64,000 bases of DNA. Origin: Nitrososphaerota archaeon (lineage in GTDB: Archaea > Thermoproteota > Nitrososphaeria > Nitrososphaerales > UBA183). The notes beneath the pieces are model-generated. The model ran no database searches. It worked only from the letters and a program-made list of their open reading frames with translations, and was not told the origin of the DNA. How positions within the stretch are numbered: position 1 is the first letter of the stretch; the number at the start of each line of letters is the position of its first letter. The stretch covers positions 1 through 64,000 of the forward strand of contig JAFLZE010000002.1 of assembly GCA_029785685.1 (NCBI GenBank). The letters are read 5' to 3'. Below, piece after piece: positions 9,130 to 15,115 of the stretch. The translations under genes were made by a program, and so were the position numbers.

Positions 9130-9230
9130 CGCCGAGAGCCGCCAATGTGGGGGGCGATAAAGCTGCGCTGGGACATGATGCCACTATTCATCTACCGGGG
9201 GCGGAGGAGGCCGGACGAAAGGAGTTGAGT

Positions 9231-9755
9231 GTGAAGAGCATCAGGGTGCTTAGACTAGGGCAGAGATACGTGAGGGATGAAAGGACGCTCACACATCTTT
9301 GCCTGGTTTCTAGGGCGTTGGGGGCAGAGTGTATCTATCTCGAAGATGCGGAGAATGACGTCACGGCCACACTCGATGAAGTGAATAAGACGTGGGGCGG
9401 GGATTTCCACGCCATACTAGGCGCACCGTGGAGGGGGGTGATAAGAGAGGCGAAGAAAGAGGGAAGGAGCGTCGTCCACCTTACCATGTATGGTATGCCC
9501 ATCCAAGATGTGATTCATGACCTTCGAAGCCTGGAGAAATACCTTATTGTCATAGGCGGGCCGAAGGTTCCAGGAAAGGTATACCACGAGGCTGACTTCA
9601 ACGTCGCGGTTACCTCGCAGCCTCACTCGGAGGTGGCCGCCCTTGCTATCATGCTTCACGAGGTCCAGGGCGGGGAAGAGCTTAAGAGGACGTTCAGCCA
9701 AAGTAGACTTAGAATCTTGCCTTCCGCCCGGGGCAAGAGAGTTGTAGAAAATTGA
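9231..9755 (+). CDS. tRNA (cytidine-56 2'-O)-methyltransferase Trm56
   Basis: A 174-residue SPOUT-type enzyme that methylates C56 in the T loop. The archaeal signature VLRLGQRYVRDERTLTHLCL is at the N-terminus, and IGGPKVP and TSQPHSEVAALA match the SAM-binding knot. I chose GTG at 9231 because AAAGGAG is five bases upstream; TTG at 9225 is an alternative. The stop overlaps the next start (TTGA), making this the first gene of a tight trm56-tfe-HD operon. Confidence 0.93.
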   Translation: MKSIRVLRLGQRYVRDERTLTHLCLVSRALGAECIYLEDAENDVTATLDEVNKTWGGDFHAILGAPWRGVIREAKKEGRSVVHLTMYGMPIQDVIHDLRSLEKYLIVIGGPKVPGKVYHEADFNVAVTSQPHSEVAALAIMLHEVQGGEELKRTFSQSRLRILPSARGKRVVEN

Positions 9756-10261
9756 AGATTGAATACGAAGATACCTTTGTGAAGGTCGCCGGACTCATAG
9801 GCGGGCCCGACTACGTCAGGGTGGCAAGGGCGCTCCTAAACAATGAGAACGCCACAGACGAGGAGATTGCGTCCGCCACAGGGCTCAAGATAAAGACGGT
9901 CAGAAAGGCCCTCTACGATCTGTTCGGCCGGAGCCTCATAACCGGGGTCAGGGTCAGAGATCCCAAGAGAGGCTGGTTCGTCTACAGGTGGAAGGCCCAG
10001 AGAGACCAGACGGATGGGTTCATTCAGACCCAGCGGAAGAAAGTTCTGAACAGGCTGAGGCAGCGACTCGAGTATGAAGACATGCACGAGTTCTACCACT
10101 GCGGGACCCCAACCTGCCTGACCAGGACATTCGAAGACGCCATGGAGAACTTCTTCAAGTGCCCAGTCTGCGGCAAGTCCCTGAACCGCCTTGACAACGC
10201 AGAGCTGAAAGATGCCCTGCACTCGAAGATCAAGCAGCTGGAAGAGGAACTCGCCAAGTGA
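9752..10261 (+). CDS. tfe: Transcription initiation factor E, alpha subunit
   Basis: A 169-residue general transcription factor that stabilises open complexes with TBP, TFB and RNA polymerase. The N-terminal winged helix (about 1-90) includes NENATDEEIASATGLKIKTV. A basic linker follows, then a zinc ribbon with HCGTPTC and FKCPVCGKSL. The start is TTG within the upstream stop, and the stop overlaps the next GTG. Length is typical for archaea. Confidence 0.95.
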   Translation: MKIEYEDTFVKVAGLIGGPDYVRVARALLNNENATDEEIASATGLKIKTVRKALYDLFGRSLITGVRVRDPKRGWFVYRWKAQRDQTDGFIQTQRKKVLNRLRQRLEYEDMHEFYHCGTPTCLTRTFEDAMENFFKCPVCGKSLNRLDNAELKDALHSKIKQLEEELAK

Positions 10262-10800
10262 TCACTTCCGAAGGAGAAGCGGAGGCGCTCCATCGGAAGT
10301 ACGGCAGCGATGAAGGAATCGTCCTGCACTGCAGGACTGTGACCAAGGTCGCGTTGGTCCTAGCTGAAGAGTTCAGGAGACGTGGGTATGCGATAGACGA
10401 CAAAGCGGTGCGTGTCGCAGCCATGCTCCACGACATCGGGAGGTCGAGAATCCAGACTGTCAAGCATGGTGTAGAGGGGGCAGGGATTGCGGAGAGGGAA
10501 GGAGCAGGGAAGAAGGTCGCTGGGATAATCCAGAGGCATGTAGGAGCTGGGATTTCTCCCGAGGAGGCAAAGTCGCTCGGGTTGCCAGACCTGGACTACA
10601 TACCCCGGACTCTGGAAGAAAGGGTCGTCTGCTTCGCAGATAAGATGGTCGACGGAGACAAGGTCAGGCCCTTCGAGGAAGAGGTGCGCAGGTTCACGGC
10701 CAAGAAGCACGATGTGGCACGCCTCCTAGGCCTCAAAGAGAGGCTCTGGGAAGAGCTCGGTGAGGACCCTGAAAAAGTCGTCTTCGACAATGTGAAATAG
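10258..10800 (+). CDS. HD-domain metal-dependent phosphohydrolase
   Basis: A 180-residue protein with the HD superfamily metal ligands: His near residue 24 (VLHCRTVT), the AAMLHDIGRSR doublet and the distal FADKMVDGDK Asp. Such proteins hydrolyse nucleotides or cyclic phosphodiesters; the substrate here is unknown. GTG overlaps the tfe stop by four bases, indicating coupled translation. Confidence 0.88.
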   Translation: MITSEGEAEALHRKYGSDEGIVLHCRTVTKVALVLAEEFRRRGYAIDDKAVRVAAMLHDIGRSRIQTVKHGVEGAGIAEREGAGKKVAGIIQRHVGAGISPEEAKSLGLPDLDYIPRTLEERVVCFADKMVDGDKVRPFEEEVRRFTAKKHDVARLLGLKERLWEELGEDPEKVVFDNVK

Positions 10801-10822
10801 TTGCGGCCCCGGCGACCTAACC

Positions 10823-10933
10823 ATGGCATCCTGCATCTGTAAGGTCTGCAGGCACAAGGACTACGAAAGTTGCTCGAACTGCACCTGCTGCAGATACCAG
10901 CGGGCGGCATGCATGCAGGTCCCTGGGCGCTGA
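10823..10933 (+). CDS. Tiny cysteine-rich protein, putative zinc binder
   Basis: A 36-residue frame starting MASCICKVCRHKDYES, with eight cysteines and one histidine spaced C-x-C-x2-C-x-H-x5-C-x2-C-x-CC-x6-C. That density is hard to obtain by chance and suggests one compact metal site. It starts 22 bases after the HD gene, so it may be the last gene of that operon. No family is recognised and no clear ribosome-binding site is seen, so expression is uncertain. Confidence 0.55.
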   Translation: MASCICKVCRHKDYESCSNCTCCRYQRAACMQVPGR

Positions 10934-11016
10934 TGACTGAAGCGTCAGAAGCCCCGGATGACTAGCTTGACGAGAACCCCGAAGCATATAAGAGCTAACT
11001 CATCCGAGCCCATCGA

Positions 11017-11134
11017 AGCGAGGTGGGGAAGCCAGACCCCCCGTGGGGGTAAGGATCATCCCGGCGGGCTCATAACCCGCAGAGCGGAGATCGGGCGAAA
11101 AACCCGACCGTGCGTTCAAATCCTCCCCTCGCTA
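11017..11134 (+). tRNA. Initiator tRNA-Met (CAT) with two non-canonical introns
   Basis: The acceptor AGCGAGG/CCTCGCT has the A1-U72 pair, and the anticodon stem GCGGG/CCCGC has the three G-C pairs of initiators; CAT is at 11071-11073. The D stem is GGGA/TCCC (11026-11029, 11059-11062). Intron 1 interrupts the D loop: about 18 nt, roughly 11036-11053, with edges ambiguous by two bases. Intron 2, 11090-11113 (24 nt), splits the T stem before its last pair. Removing it restores GGAGG-TTCAAAT-CCTCC. Intron 2 forms a bulge-helix-bulge with AG^A and GC^G bulges. The mature RNA is about 76 nt. A TATA box (CATATAAG) lies at 10985-10992. Confidence 0.9.
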
Positions 11135-11298
11135 CTTCTGCAACAGGATGCATAACTCCATGTAGCAACAGCAAGTGTGAATCACGCAGTCGTGTGGCTT
11201 CGCATCTGACTGTGAACCGCGGCTCGATTGGTGGCGCCAGAGAACAGGCGCGAGTTTTATATCGGATTGTGATGTCCTGCAAGATGCGCTAGAGGAAC

Positions 11299-11640
11299 TT
11301 GAGCGAGATAAAGGCAATACACGTGGTGCATGCGACGTGGTGCCCACACTGCCACCCGACCACGGTAGAACCGATGAAAGCAAAGGCCGCGGAGCTAGGG
11401 GTGGACTTCTACGATTACGATATAGACAACCCTGAGCAAGCGAACAAGGCGGACGACCTCGTTAGAGGCCACGGCGACTGGGCGGAAGACTATCTGATAC
11501 CCCAGGTGTTCCTGGAGATGAGGGACGGGACGCTACGTCACGTCCTAAGCGGCTACTCTGAAGGAGTAGAACTCACCAAACGCGGGGTCGAGAATCTGCT
11601 GAAAAGCCCTTACTTTGACGGTGATACATCTGCAAGATAG
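11299..11640 (+). CDS. Thioredoxin/glutaredoxin-like redox protein
   Basis: A 113-residue thioredoxin-fold protein with the active-site motif ATWCPHCHP near residue 16 and a cis-Pro region IPQVFLEM. Reduction or isomerisation of disulfides is likely. The start is TTG at 11299, close after AGAGGA; a TATA box (TTTTATAT, 11254-11261) lies 38-45 bases upstream. It overlaps the next gene by 26 bases. Confidence 0.82.
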   Translation: MSEIKAIHVVHATWCPHCHPTTVEPMKAKAAELGVDFYDYDIDNPEQANKADDLVRGHGDWAEDYLIPQVFLEMRDGTLRHVLSGYSEGVELTKRGVENLLKSPYFDGDTSAR

Positions 11641-12082
11641 CATAGTAGAGATAGCGCGCTCGTTCCTGGCGACCACGGTGAAGTGTCAGCATTGTGGCGG
11701 CCAGGCTGCAATGGAGTACGTTGGGGATGGCTCGATTGGGCTGCACGTCTGCCCGGAGAGATATGTCTCGAGGATAATCGGGTATGGAAGCCAGTTTGAC
11801 ACGGGCCGCTTCATGGGGTTCGTGCAGAAGGCCATCCAGGGAGCGCAGGAAGTCGAGGCGGGAGACATCAGGGTCGCGAGTCGTTACGCCTGGGATCTGG
11901 GGCTCGCCAGAGAGAGCAACGACCCGATTCTCAAGGAGATGTACTGGACACAGAACTATCGCAGAACGAGGAGCGAAGACCCCGACGGGGTGGGGGTCTT
12001 TTTCTGTGCCAATGGGGATTCCTTCTTCATCCAGCCGCTAAAGAACGATGAAAGACTCTGTGGTAAGTGCAGAACGTCATAG
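11615..12082 (+). CDS. Conserved-looking zinc-binding protein of unknown function
   Basis: A 155-residue protein with CQHC near residue 24, HVC near residue 45 and a C-terminal LCGKC, so a metal site built from both ends is possible. The middle is soluble and mixed. No family is recognised. It starts inside the thioredoxin gene (TTG at 11615, or GTG at 11621) and probably shares its mRNA, hinting at a redox partner. Its 3' end overlaps the convergent tiaS by six bases. Confidence 0.7.
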   Translation: MTVIHLQDSIVEIARSFLATTVKCQHCGGQAAMEYVGDGSIGLHVCPERYVSRIIGYGSQFDTGRFMGFVQKAIQGAQEVEAGDIRVASRYAWDLGLARESNDPILKEMYWTQNYRRTRSEDPDGVGVFFCANGDSFFIQPLKNDERLCGKCRTS

Positions 12083-13252
12083 GAAAGGCATAGCACTGCA
12101 CCAGCCGTCGACCGGCTTCGCCTCCCCATAGACCTCGAGGCCGTATCTGATGAGAGGCTTGGTCAGATGCCTGTTAGCCCTGGGGGACGAGATGTATACC
12201 CCTGTCTCCAGCCTGCCCTGGGTGCATCTCACCTCCAGTTTCTCCAGGTTGAGGACTTTCGGGTGGCGGGCCGTGGCCCTCCGTACCCCCCCGGATACAC
12301 GGACAGTGTCACCTTTACCCAGCAGCTTGGCCGAACGTCTGAGGTCTCCTGTGGGTTCGTAGGCGGCGACCGACCGCCTTCGCCCCCTATCGATGATTGT
12401 GATGTAAACGTGCCCGCCTTCGCCAACGCTCACCTGATCGACAGTCCCGTCGACCCAGCCCGACGAGTAGACTTTCCAGTCCAGCGCCCTCTGAACGTGA
12501 GCATCGGTGTGCTGGTTGGATATGTACACCATGTACCCTTCCAAGGGTTCGTCATATCTCAGCATGCCGAAGCCCCTGATTACGCTGGACGGAGAGTCGC
12601 CCCGGATTCCGACGAACACGGGGTCAGGCCCGTGGGGGGCGACCAGGACCTTCCTCTTCTGATAGTCGTAGCTGTTGAAGGCGTGAGGGAACAGCCTAGC
12701 GTCCATCTTCTTGACCGAAGAGCTGTCGATGAGACGCTTGGTGCCCCAGTTCTCCCTACGCCTGTAGCCTATCAGTTCGTAGGTGTGGTCGGAGTGGCAG
12801 TCGAAGCCCAGGGACGCGGCAGCCCCGACTATACCCATCCCGTTCCCAAGCTCAAGGGTCCTTCCCCCAAGCCCCTCGATGAGCTTTCGAACCCTGTGGG
12901 GACTGACTACTGCAGCTAGTGCGTCCTGATAGAGGCCCCTGAAGCCCTCGGCTTTGGAGGGGTCGTCAAGGAAGACCATCCCTGAGTTAGCCCCGCCGCT
13001 GACGTCTGACAATTCCTTGACCTTCTCAGAGAGGGACTGGAAGACCGTGTCCGGGTTGTCTCCCTCAAGCGTCAGACACACCGCTGCGTTCCCTCGTGTT
13101 TTGAACGGGATGTTTGGGTTAAGCCTGACCAGACGAGGGTAGGCACACACTCTGACTTCTGGGTCCAAGTCAGAAGCGATCCGGTAGGCAAGGTACGTTG
13201 TGCAGTAACCCCGTGAGGAGTCGGTGTCGTCAACACCCACGAGGAAGCGCAT
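12077..13252 (-). CDS. tiaS: tRNA-Ile2 2-agmatinylcytidine synthetase
   Basis: A 391-residue archaeal enzyme that attaches agmatine to C34 of tRNA-Ile2 so that it reads AUA. The N-terminus FLVGVDDTDSSRGYCTTYL is the ATP/kinase signature. GNGMGIVGAAAS, an OB-fold and a late ANRHLTKPLIR motif follow. The C-terminal zinc ribbon usual before that last motif seems reduced to one cysteine (VRCTQGRLETG). A TATA box (CTTAAAAC, near 13276-13283) about 27 bases upstream gives a leaderless ATG. Confidence 0.93.
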   Translation of the reverse strand: MRFLVGVDDTDSSRGYCTTYLAYRIASDLDPEVRVCAYPRLVRLNPNIPFKTRGNAAVCLTLEGDNPDTVFQSLSEKVKELSDVSGGANSGMVFLDDPSKAEGFRGLYQDALAAVVSPHRVRKLIEGLGGRTLELGNGMGIVGAAASLGFDCHSDHTYELIGYRRRENWGTKRLIDSSSVKKMDARLFPHAFNSYDYQKRKVLVAPHGPDPVFVGIRGDSPSSVIRGFGMLRYDEPLEGYMVYISNQHTDAHVQRALDWKVYSSGWVDGTVDQVSVGEGGHVYITIIDRGRRRSVAAYEPTGDLRRSAKLLGKGDTVRVSGGVRRATARHPKVLNLEKLEVRCTQGRLETGVYISSPRANRHLTKPLIRYGLEVYGEAKPVDGWCSAMPFL

Positions 13253-13294
13253 GAGAAGAGACGCTGGCCTAGGATGTTTTAAGCGTGGGATGAC

Positions 13295-13528
13295 CTACGC
13301 GTCGACAACGATCATGGTGAGGGTGCTCCTCACCTTGTCGAGGCGCCTGATGTTCCAGGTGATGGTCTCCTTGACCTTCTCCATGGTGTCCGCTTCTACC
13401 CTTGCCACTATGTCATACACGCCATAGACGACATAGACTTCCTTGACGTTGGCAATCTCTCTCAGCTTCTTGAGAAGATCCTCTTCAGCGCCGAGGTCAG
13501 CATTGACTAGTACGAACGCCTGTGGCAT
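13295..13528 (-). CDS. Stand-alone Lrp/AsnC ligand-binding domain protein
   Basis: A 77-residue protein matching the RAM/ligand-binding domain of Lrp/AsnC regulators (MPQAFVLVNADLGAEEDLL, then VYVVYGVYDIVARVEA). It lacks the DNA-binding half. Such single-domain forms assemble into ring-like oligomers and may modulate full-length Lrp proteins or sense amino acids. A TATA-like TTAATACTC lies 40-50 bases upstream. The frame stays open upstream, but that part is not protein-like. Confidence 0.85.
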   Translation of the reverse strand: MPQAFVLVNADLGAEEDLLKKLREIANVKEVYVVYGVYDIVARVEADTMEKVKETITWNIRRLDKVRSTLTMIVVDA

Positions 13529-13817
13529 GGCCACCCAATAGCCCCCTGTTTCCAACGGATATTTACGACGAGTATTAATCCTTGCGCCCAGATTCTCCAA
13601 GTCTAGCCGCAGCGACTGACCCGGAGATGGTTGCTTGACCAAGGCTGTGGTGGCGAGGGTTTCCCGACAGCCAGGCTTCTGTTCAAACTGAGTCTGCCGC
13701 AGCTTGCGGTCGACCAGCTTCAAGAGGGCCTGGACAGGGTGCGTCTTTGGAGCCAGTGTCGTCGGCTGCACCGACACCACCTTAAGTGAGCCCGAGCCGG
13801 CCCCGAACTGAAGCCGC

Positions 13818-14351
13818 ATGCTAGGAGTGTTCGCCCTCGAGATGGGACAGGATGACCCAACCAAGTGCACCGCGCGGAAGATGGTCAATATGGACCTGGC
13901 CAAGGGTGTGAGCAGGAAGTTCCATGCCTCTGACAAGGTGGTAGTCCTGAATCCCTGGGCGCATCGGGTCCTCTCTTCTCCGGATAAGGGCGCGAAGGCG
14001 GTCCTCGTTGTCGACGCTTCATGGAACCAGGCGCAGGAGGTGTTCTTCAGGAAGCTAGGAGGGAAGCATAGGAGGCTCCCCGTCCTTTTGGCGGCGAACC
14101 CCACCAATTACTCCAAAGCAGGAGTGCTCAGCTCGTTGGAAGCAGTCTCGGCCACGATGTACATACTCGGCGAAGTCGAAGAGGCTGAGAGATACCTCAG
14201 CATATACAAGTGGGGCCCGACCTTTCTTACCCTCAACCAGGAACCGCTGGAAGCCTACCGCCGGGCAAGGACGGAAGGGAAGGTGCGGCAAGTTGAGAGA
14301 GAGTTTTTCCCTCACCTCTTCGCGTCTGACTCCCTCCAGCGCGAAGAATGA
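13818..14351 (+). CDS. tsr3: Tsr3-family rRNA aminocarboxypropyltransferase
   Basis: A 177-residue SPOUT-like enzyme that adds the acp group to small-subunit rRNA. MGQDDPTKCTARKM near the N-terminus is the family signature, and VLVVDASWNQA and LPVLLAANPTNYSK match its core. CTTAAGTG (about 13780-13787) is the likely TATA box, giving a leader of about nine bases. Confidence 0.92.
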   Translation: MLGVFALEMGQDDPTKCTARKMVNMDLAKGVSRKFHASDKVVVLNPWAHRVLSSPDKGAKAVLVVDASWNQAQEVFFRKLGGKHRRLPVLLAANPTNYSKAGVLSSLEAVSATMYILGEVEEAERYLSIYKWGPTFLTLNQEPLEAYRRARTEGKVRQVEREFFPHLFASDSLQREE

Positions 14352-14814
14352 TGCATCTCCAGGGTACGGTTCGCGAAGCACTCCCACCAGGAACTCGGAG
14401 AGCGCACAGCGGCCTTTCTGGGGCGTAGGCGCACGCTCTCATAGCGGCCCTCCTCACCTCTGGATCGTCTGCGGCCCTTGCCCTTTCAACTTGTTGGGAG
14501 CCCTCCATCCGAGTCGTTGGGCCACTTCGCGAGAGAGCGGACTGTGTATCGACCGTTTAAGTCACCCCTTGCGTGAAGTTGGTTCTATGAAAGCGCATAG
14601 GCGTCTTCCGGCAATGAACGGGGCGAATGGGTAGACCGAGGATAACCTTCTCTCCTGACTGCGCTGAGATACGTCACATTCTCGGCCAGACGCCCGGTGC
14701 CGAGCTTGGCCATATCCGAGAGGGACTCTCCCAACTGAGAGATGCGGCCTGGCTACTGTTCCTGCTAAACCCCCTTTCGCCCTTCAGTAACGGTTAACTG
14801 AGGGCGGTCTGTAA
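14352..14814. other. Non-coding stretch before RNase P RNA
   Basis: No convincing protein gene. A TATA-like GTTTAAG occurs near 14550 and could drive a short RNA or a longer leader. GGTTAACT near 14792-14799 is about 26 bases before the predicted RNase P RNA start and is the better promoter candidate. Otherwise I see nothing definite. Confidence 0.4.
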
Positions 14815-15115
14815 TGCGTGGCCGACGCGAGCCGGTGGACGGGCCACGGGGATCTCCTGGGGAAGTTCCTCCCTCGCTGCAGGACGCACGGCGCCAGGAG
14901 GCGCGACCGGAGACGGTCGGCTCCAGAACAGAAACGGAACCCGACCCACCACGAGCGGTGATGGGGCGACCTTGAGGTCGGTGGGATGCGGGATGAAACG
15001 GCTGACCCGTGCGGAGCAAGGCCAAATGTGGCCGATGAAGTGCCTGCGACAGGCCAAGGTAGGCCGCTGAGCGGAATCCCGTCTAGAACAGAAGGAGGAC
15101 TACGGCCGGCACGAG
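14815..15115 (+). ncRNA. rnpB: RNase P RNA
   Basis: The catalytic RNA that trims tRNA 5' ends. Universally conserved blocks are present in the right order: GGGGAAGTTCCTCC (P4 5' strand, about 14859-14872), the GATGAAACGG block (about 14992-15001), GGAGCAAGGCCAAAT (15016-15030), GTAGGCCGCTGAG (15059-15071) and ACAGAAGGAGGACTA (15088-15102, P4 3' strand). GGCCG near 14820 can pair with CGGCC near 15104 for P1. The ends are approximate. An archaeal type A RNA is likely from its size. Confidence 0.92.

Follow-up and report, generated by a model that had tools for sequence, protein, structure and literature searches.

The window, a 64,000-nucleotide stretch with 57.5% GC, carries an interrupted initiator tRNA-Met(CAU) gene. 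Its host is a member of Nitrososphaeria (Thaumarchaeota), not of Thermoproteales. The gene sits among RNA-biology genes occupying positions 9147-15114. The features of the locus are as follows:

9147-9755: Trm56
9752-10261: TFIIE alpha
10986-10992, forward strand: TATA-like promoter element (ATATAAG), located by eye 25-31 nt ahead of the gene
11017-11134, forward strand: interrupted initiator tRNA-Met(CAU) gene
11017-11035, forward strand: exon 1 (positions 1-18), with the 5' strands of the acceptor and D stems and the first part of the D loop
11031-11033, forward strand: G15 C16 C17, 5' strand of the central helix of the D-loop BHB, pairing with intron positions 11048-11050 (G15 with U); A14 is unpaired
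11036-11053, forward strand: intron 1, 18 nt, in the D loop between G18 and G19, assigned from an empty site in genome G262, recurrence in the genus and covariation
11054-11089, forward strand: exon 2 (G19 to position 52), with the anticodon CAT at 11071-11073
11084-11087, forward strand: GCGG, 5' strand of the central helix of the T-stem BHB, pairing with CCGT at 11108-11111
11088-11090 and 11112-11114, forward strand: bulges AG^A and GC^G of the T-stem BHB
11090-11113, forward strand: intron 2, 24 nt, in the T stem between positions 52 and 53, with the inner helix 11091-11095 / 11103-11107
11114-11134, forward strand: exon 3 (G53 to the discriminator A73), with the T loop and the 3' strands of the T and acceptor stems
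12077-13252, reverse strand: TiaS
13818-14351: Ribo_biogen_C protein
14827-15114: archaeal RNase P RNA

ARAGORN called no tRNA in the whole window, in the 118-nt unspliced gene or after removal of the D-loop insert alone. Removal of the T-stem insert alone gave a distorted tRNA-Met in which 21 nt at 32/33 were spuriously taken for an intron, and only with both inserts removed was a regular 76-nt tRNA-Met(cat) with a standard cloverleaf restored. The Rfam tRNA model produced a single misplaced match of 16.8 bits. The interruptions thus show why both tools overlook the start tRNA in this window. Initiator tRNAs are marked by an A1-U72 pair and three G-C pairs beside the anticodon loop; A1-U72, the GGG/CCC anticodon-stem pairs and the CAU anticodon can all be read from the gene. 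CCA is not encoded at its 3' end. The three exons follow one another in order within 118 bp, so the gene is neither permuted nor split. The original prediction, an initiator gene with two non-canonical introns, one of about 18 nt in the D loop and one of 24 nt at 11090-11113 separating positions 52 and 53, with the 37/38 site free, and with a mature form of about 76 nt, was accurate in all these points, including the coordinates.

In 23 upstream regions (the window and 22 genomes of its genus), inspection by eye found an A/T-rich element at approximately the same distance from the gene, which we presume to be a TATA box. Its letters vary (CATATAAG, GACTTAAG, CATAATAAG, CTCTTAAA and others), and the leader around it changes in much of its remainder.

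The objects for comparative analysis were 30 genome loci, at least 119 contig stretches and further loci. The contig stretches had been chosen for the presence of a D-loop insert, so they give no frequency of this intron. A first parse left out 24 of 150 sources owing to another variable loop (17), another T-loop letter (3), a contig end (2), masking (1) or another D loop (L028), and a wider pattern yielded 120 distinct initiator gene sequences from the relatives and the window. One of them, L188, was retained in the counts, although its T stem parses badly and the border of its third intron is unreliable. After splicing, all 120 sequences were called as tRNA-Met (by ARAGORN for the window), as against 1 of the 116 interrupted ones before splicing. 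The genome nearest to the window among those compared was G001, which shares 93% of sampled 31-mers and is identical at 161 of 161 bases of the locus.

The T-stem intron has to be removed since the T stem cannot exist otherwise. The BHB with cut points AG^A and GC^G that had been proposed to restore this stem is present, with 4/4 pairs in the central helix (GCGG/CCGU) and 5/5 in the inner helix (UCGGG/CCCGA), and splicing there, with the other insert also out, gives the regular tRNA. When the letters of the insert were shuffled 200,000 times, an equally good motif arose twice. The exact BHB is not the minimum-energy form on free folding of the precursor, lying 0.3 kcal/mol above the optimum. 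Among 34 T-stem introns, 133 of 136 cells of the central helix and 123 of 136 of the inner helix were paired; the four central pairs were formed in 32, 34, 34 and 33 genes, the outer (last) one variously as G-U, G-C, U-A or C-G. With the partner displaced by 1 to 3 letters, central pairing dropped from 0.98 to at most 0.62. With kinship ignored, 5 of 1,000 shuffles reached the observed central pairing (shuffle mean, 0.95), while inner-helix pairing exceeded all 1,000, with 46 cells changed on both sides. The strict BHB lay within 3 kcal/mol of the folding optimum for 30/34 T-stem, 28/29 T-loop and 29/62 anticodon-loop introns.

The D-loop intron has to be removed since G18 and G19 are otherwise not adjacent. 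Its BHB in the window is of a relaxed form, with 3/4 central and 3/3 inner pairs; the fourth central pair is A-A here and is unformed in 36 of 108 genes. A motif as good was reached by 999 of 200,000 shuffles of the insert, so this BHB is, taken by itself, no more than suggestive. On free folding, the exact D-loop BHB of the window is likewise not the minimum-energy form and lies 11.7 kcal/mol above the optimum because a 6-bp hairpin in the D loop, which the minimum-energy fold retains, competes with it. Given this weak motif and unfavorable fold, the case for intron 1 is a comparative one.

One part of the comparative evidence is covariation between exon and intron. In 108 D-loop introns, the four exon-intron pairs were formed in 106, 104, 105 and 72 genes. 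Position 16 of the exon changed together with its intron partner (67 C-G, 27 U-G, 10 U-A and 4 unpaired). Central pairing fell from 0.89 to at most 0.50 when the partner was slid by 1 to 3 letters and was reached by none of 1,000 shuffles (mean, 0.88; kinship ignored). The high shuffle means of the central helices, here and in the T stem, reflect columns that vary little. In the inner helix, 92 cells were changed on both sides in 105 genes and pairing exceeded all 1,000 shuffles, again with kinship ignored, but it was less specific, since slides of +1 and +2 kept 0.77 and 0.79 of the pairs versus 0.83. The D-loop BHB lay at a median of 1.9 kcal/mol above the optimum in the introns tested and within 3 kcal/mol of it in 69 of 105.

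Empty sites were also found. G262, of the window's genus, lacks the D-loop insert and reads GCCAG-GATCATCCC, the very junction predicted for the window; the introns of its initiator gene are at 37/38 and 52/53. In genus g27 of the same order, 19 of 20 genomes were matched, and among the genes listed a 15-nt D-loop insert was present in 5 and cleanly absent in 14. Thus, the 18/19 site is empty in a close relative and in other genera, and within the window's genus 10 of 21 intact genes have an empty 52/53 site. The comparison with relatives that had been proposed therefore bore the prediction out, the same sites being either occupied or exactly empty in related genomes.

These data bear on the single alternative that keeps some weight, namely that the T-stem insert is the sole intron and the mature tRNA keeps the D-loop insert as a hairpin that lengthens the D loop, with GG at 11053-11054 acting as G18 and G19. 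The retained hairpin, the lower stability of the strict BHB in the window and the tRNA-Met called with the T-stem insert alone removed all speak for it, but that call includes the spurious intron at 32/33, the site is exactly empty in G262 and in 14 of the 19 listed g27 genes, the exon and the insert covary, and in most relatives tested the motif is close to the folding optimum. We consider such retention improbable. The original prediction had named a fold keeping the D-loop insert as evidence against itself; the minimum-energy fold indeed does so, while the empty sites and covariation favor removal. If intron 1 is spliced out of the window transcript, either its motif must be cut as a relaxed BHB, or the enzyme has to open the hairpin, or the hairpin has to be kept from forming while the RNA is transcribed.

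The inserts could also be viewed as sequencing or binning artefacts, given that most of the sources are metagenome-assembled genomes. This reading is refuted by the comparative data and retains practically no probability: the same sites recur in many separate genomes, with a D-loop insert in 26 of the 41 matches listed in a pattern search, inserts are present in the records of Candidatus Nitrosotenuis chungbukensis strain MY2 and Candidatus Nitrosocosmicus sp. SS, and they carry covarying structure. The phylum-wide pattern search gave, among the matches listed, one genome outside the class, which had no D-loop insert; since the pattern demands exact exon letters, it is uninformative on introns outside the class.

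Two to four introns have to be excised from every one of the 21 intact initiator genes of the genus. This tally excludes G020, where the gene meets a contig end, and seven unmatched genomes, and represents G025 by its complete copy. Introns were found at 18/19 in 20 genes, at 37/38 in 15, at 52/53 in 11 and at 59/60 in 11, and the number per gene was two in 8, three in 11 and four in 2. Protein synthesis starts with the initiator tRNA, and its maturation therefore must succeed every time. Introns at 18/19 and 52/53 alone, as in the window, also occur in G001, G024, G003 and G282, as well as in three Nitrosocosmicus records (L039, L097 and L109), so the two-intron gene is not unique to the window genome. 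The two introns and the lack of one at 37/38, called notable in the original prediction, are not special to the window: this pair of sites is shared by relatives, and the 37/38 intron is absent in 6 of the 21 genes.

The interrupted gene was the only initiator locus detected in several genomes. The spliced 76-mer was used as a query in 14 genomes, and no uninterrupted second copy was found with it in G001, G024, G017 or G006; an intact initiator gene elsewhere, which the original prediction had named, together with absent spliced reads, as evidence against itself, was thus not encountered in these four. In G001, the 76-mer matched the three exons of the same locus only (E < 0.01) and no contiguous copy. 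The interrupted gene was also the sole locus at E < 0.01 in G017 (100% complete, 8 contigs) and G006 (100% complete, one contig). G001 is 90% complete, and a working copy could therefore be missing from it, leaving the window locus as a decaying pseudogene. We regard this as very improbable, since no exon is damaged and G001 has the same sequence in all three, the upstream element is kept and the two complete genomes contain no other locus at this threshold. The 161-base query found no match in 7 of 25 genomes of the genus. In one of these seven, G018 (97% complete), neither the query with introns nor the pattern nor the spliced query located the initiator gene, the last giving just a weak 22-base match to a sequence that is not tRNA-like; the gene may be disrupted there to a greater extent or split, or it may be absent from the assembly.

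The splicing machinery was analyzed in G001, the nearest genome, and not in the window's own assembly. It encodes two endonucleases of family PF01974, at L154:1228-1785 and L163:1240-1782, and one RtcB ligase (PF01139). The closest PDB chain to the first endonuclease (185 aa) is 3p1z_B (E = 3.4e-42), which we take to be the catalytic chain of the Aeropyrum pernix enzyme. The catalytic triad of the splicing endonucleases consists of Tyr, His and Lys; the 185-aa protein keeps all three at the aligned positions, while the second one (180 aa) lacks the His. The first protein also reads K-P-K where 3p1z_B has K-P-R. The Crenarchaea-specific loop, in which a lysine precedes a proline or valine and then a basic residue, has been described, and such loops have been tied to relaxed substrate recognition (PMC12397907); Thaumarchaeota are placed among the bearers of alpha2beta2 splicing endonucleases in the relevant part of a review (PMC4090602).

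On sequence grounds, the best reading, and a supported one, is that of two probable non-canonical BHB introns in the only initiator gene detected. We propose that the upstream TATA-like element would drive one precursor transcript, that a two-subunit (alpha-beta) tRNA-splicing endonuclease, presumably assembled as a heterotetramer, would excise both introns at BHB-type motifs, and that RtcB would then join the three exons. With a probability of about 0.88, the gene is a functional and probably the only initiator tRNA gene of this Nitrososphaeria archaeon, spliced twice at BHB-type motifs by the alpha-beta endonuclease and joined by RtcB.

The gene belongs to the known archaeal tRNA genes with multiple BHB introns. 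Multiple non-canonical introns, which the original prediction had mentioned for Thermoproteales, are indeed described there (PMC4390854), although the host of the window is from another lineage. In the part of that paper used here, Thermoproteales pre-tRNAs likewise have several short non-canonical BHB introns per gene and an alpha-beta type enzyme, with three introns each in tRNA-Glu(UUC) of Pyrobaculum calidifontis and tRNA-Pro(UGG) of P. islandicum; the tRNAs differ, and the window gene has two introns and its relatives up to four. Closer in lineage and in the kind of intron are the 107 non-canonical tRNA introns found by tRNAscan-SE 2.0 in the Thaumarchaeota genomes analyzed, for which the passages cited list neither the initiator gene nor its positions (PMC8450103). 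The initiator tRNA is in pieces in Thermofilum pendens, where it is permuted (59/60, 37/38), and in Nanoarchaeum equitans, where it is split at 37/38, according to the relevant section of PMC3218864; both positions are also intron sites in the window's relatives, but in the window the pieces stand in normal order, probably in one transcript, with no permutation or split. Several arms of one tRNA are interrupted as well in tRNA-Ile(UAU) of the red alga Cyanidioschyzon merolae, with introns in the D, anticodon and T arms, as described in the passage cited (PMC9602550), although this is a eukaryote and another tRNA.

The finding of four introns in one initiator gene is the stronger result and the part that would surprise a specialist. 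Such genes were identified in G013 (L014/L077) and G334 (L135/L172) of the window's genus and in G237 (L080/L176) of its family, whose genomes are 79%, 91% and 88% complete, respectively. The introns interrupt the D loop, 37/38, 52/53 and 59/60. The numbers of BHB pairs formed at these sites in this order (central of 4, inner of 5) were 3,3 / 3,2 / 4,5 / 4,5 in G013, 4,3 / 3,2 / 4,5 / 4,5 in G334 and 4,5 / 3,5 / 4,5 / 4,5 in G237. The D-loop value of G237 requires both cuts to be moved by one base, to 19/20 (0,2 if unmoved), and two of the three 37/38 introns have only 2/5 inner pairs. Because the 52/53 and 59/60 introns are just 7 nt apart, their splicing is probably ordered. In the passages of five papers that bear on this question, the maximum is three introns per tRNA gene (PMC8450103, PMC4033280, PMC4390854, PMC3293823 and PMC3218864). 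No paper on four introns in one archaeal tRNA gene was found in main texts of the open-licence literature, which does not prove priority.

Further insertion sites were observed. The D-loop introns of L176 and L180 (genomes G237 and G329, the latter read by eye) are located one base over, at 19/20, and have an unrelated sequence, which suggests an independent gain or a slide. In another family, the acceptor stem of L028, L195 and L196 (genomes G026 and G115) is interrupted after AGCG by an insert of 50-59 nt (4/5; borders by eye), and the D loop of these genes reads GCCTGG without an insert. The BHB of the 4/5 insert, also delineated by eye, uses the 5' leader and comprises the central helix GTAG/CTAC and the inner helix GGCA/TGCC.

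It is quite likely that the Nitrososphaeria initiator gene is a hot spot of intron turnover, with at least six sites (4/5 by eye, 18/19, 19/20, 37/38, 52/53 and 59/60) and three species with four introns, and that the window gene represents one state in this series. Since closely related genes differ by introns gained or lost exactly, turnover, the order of splicing and the tolerance of the endonuclease can be tested directly.

An unusual arrangement was noted in G025 (contig C44; L029:1099-1590), where a complete initiator gene is followed by an ORF of 135 aa and then by an orphan initiator 3' half, which begins at the anticodon and has the 52/53 and 59/60 introns. The layout resembles the outcome of an insertion into the anticodon loop through which the gene acquired a new 3' half bearing a 37/38 intron. 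The ORF represents a small protein family with 40 homologues. Its assignment as a LAGLIDADG homing endonuclease, considered from a motif seen by eye, was dropped, as it was unsupported by profile, PDB and fold searches. The protein itself had no Pfam match, and among 29 members of the family there were only weak matches of single members; no PDB sequence matched with E of 1 or less. The model predicted for the protein, with a mean pLDDT of 90, had no convincing fold match, with TM of at most 0.42 among the best 50 listed, and the only listed match below E of 0.001 was a Pseudomonas periplasmic domain. A class-wide search with the alignment of this family gave nothing at 1e-8 in 300 genomes, a sample that evidently did not include G025 and therefore provided no positive control. 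In G317, a distant relative of the ORF adjoins what appears, by eye, to be an interrupted tRNA gene (L226).
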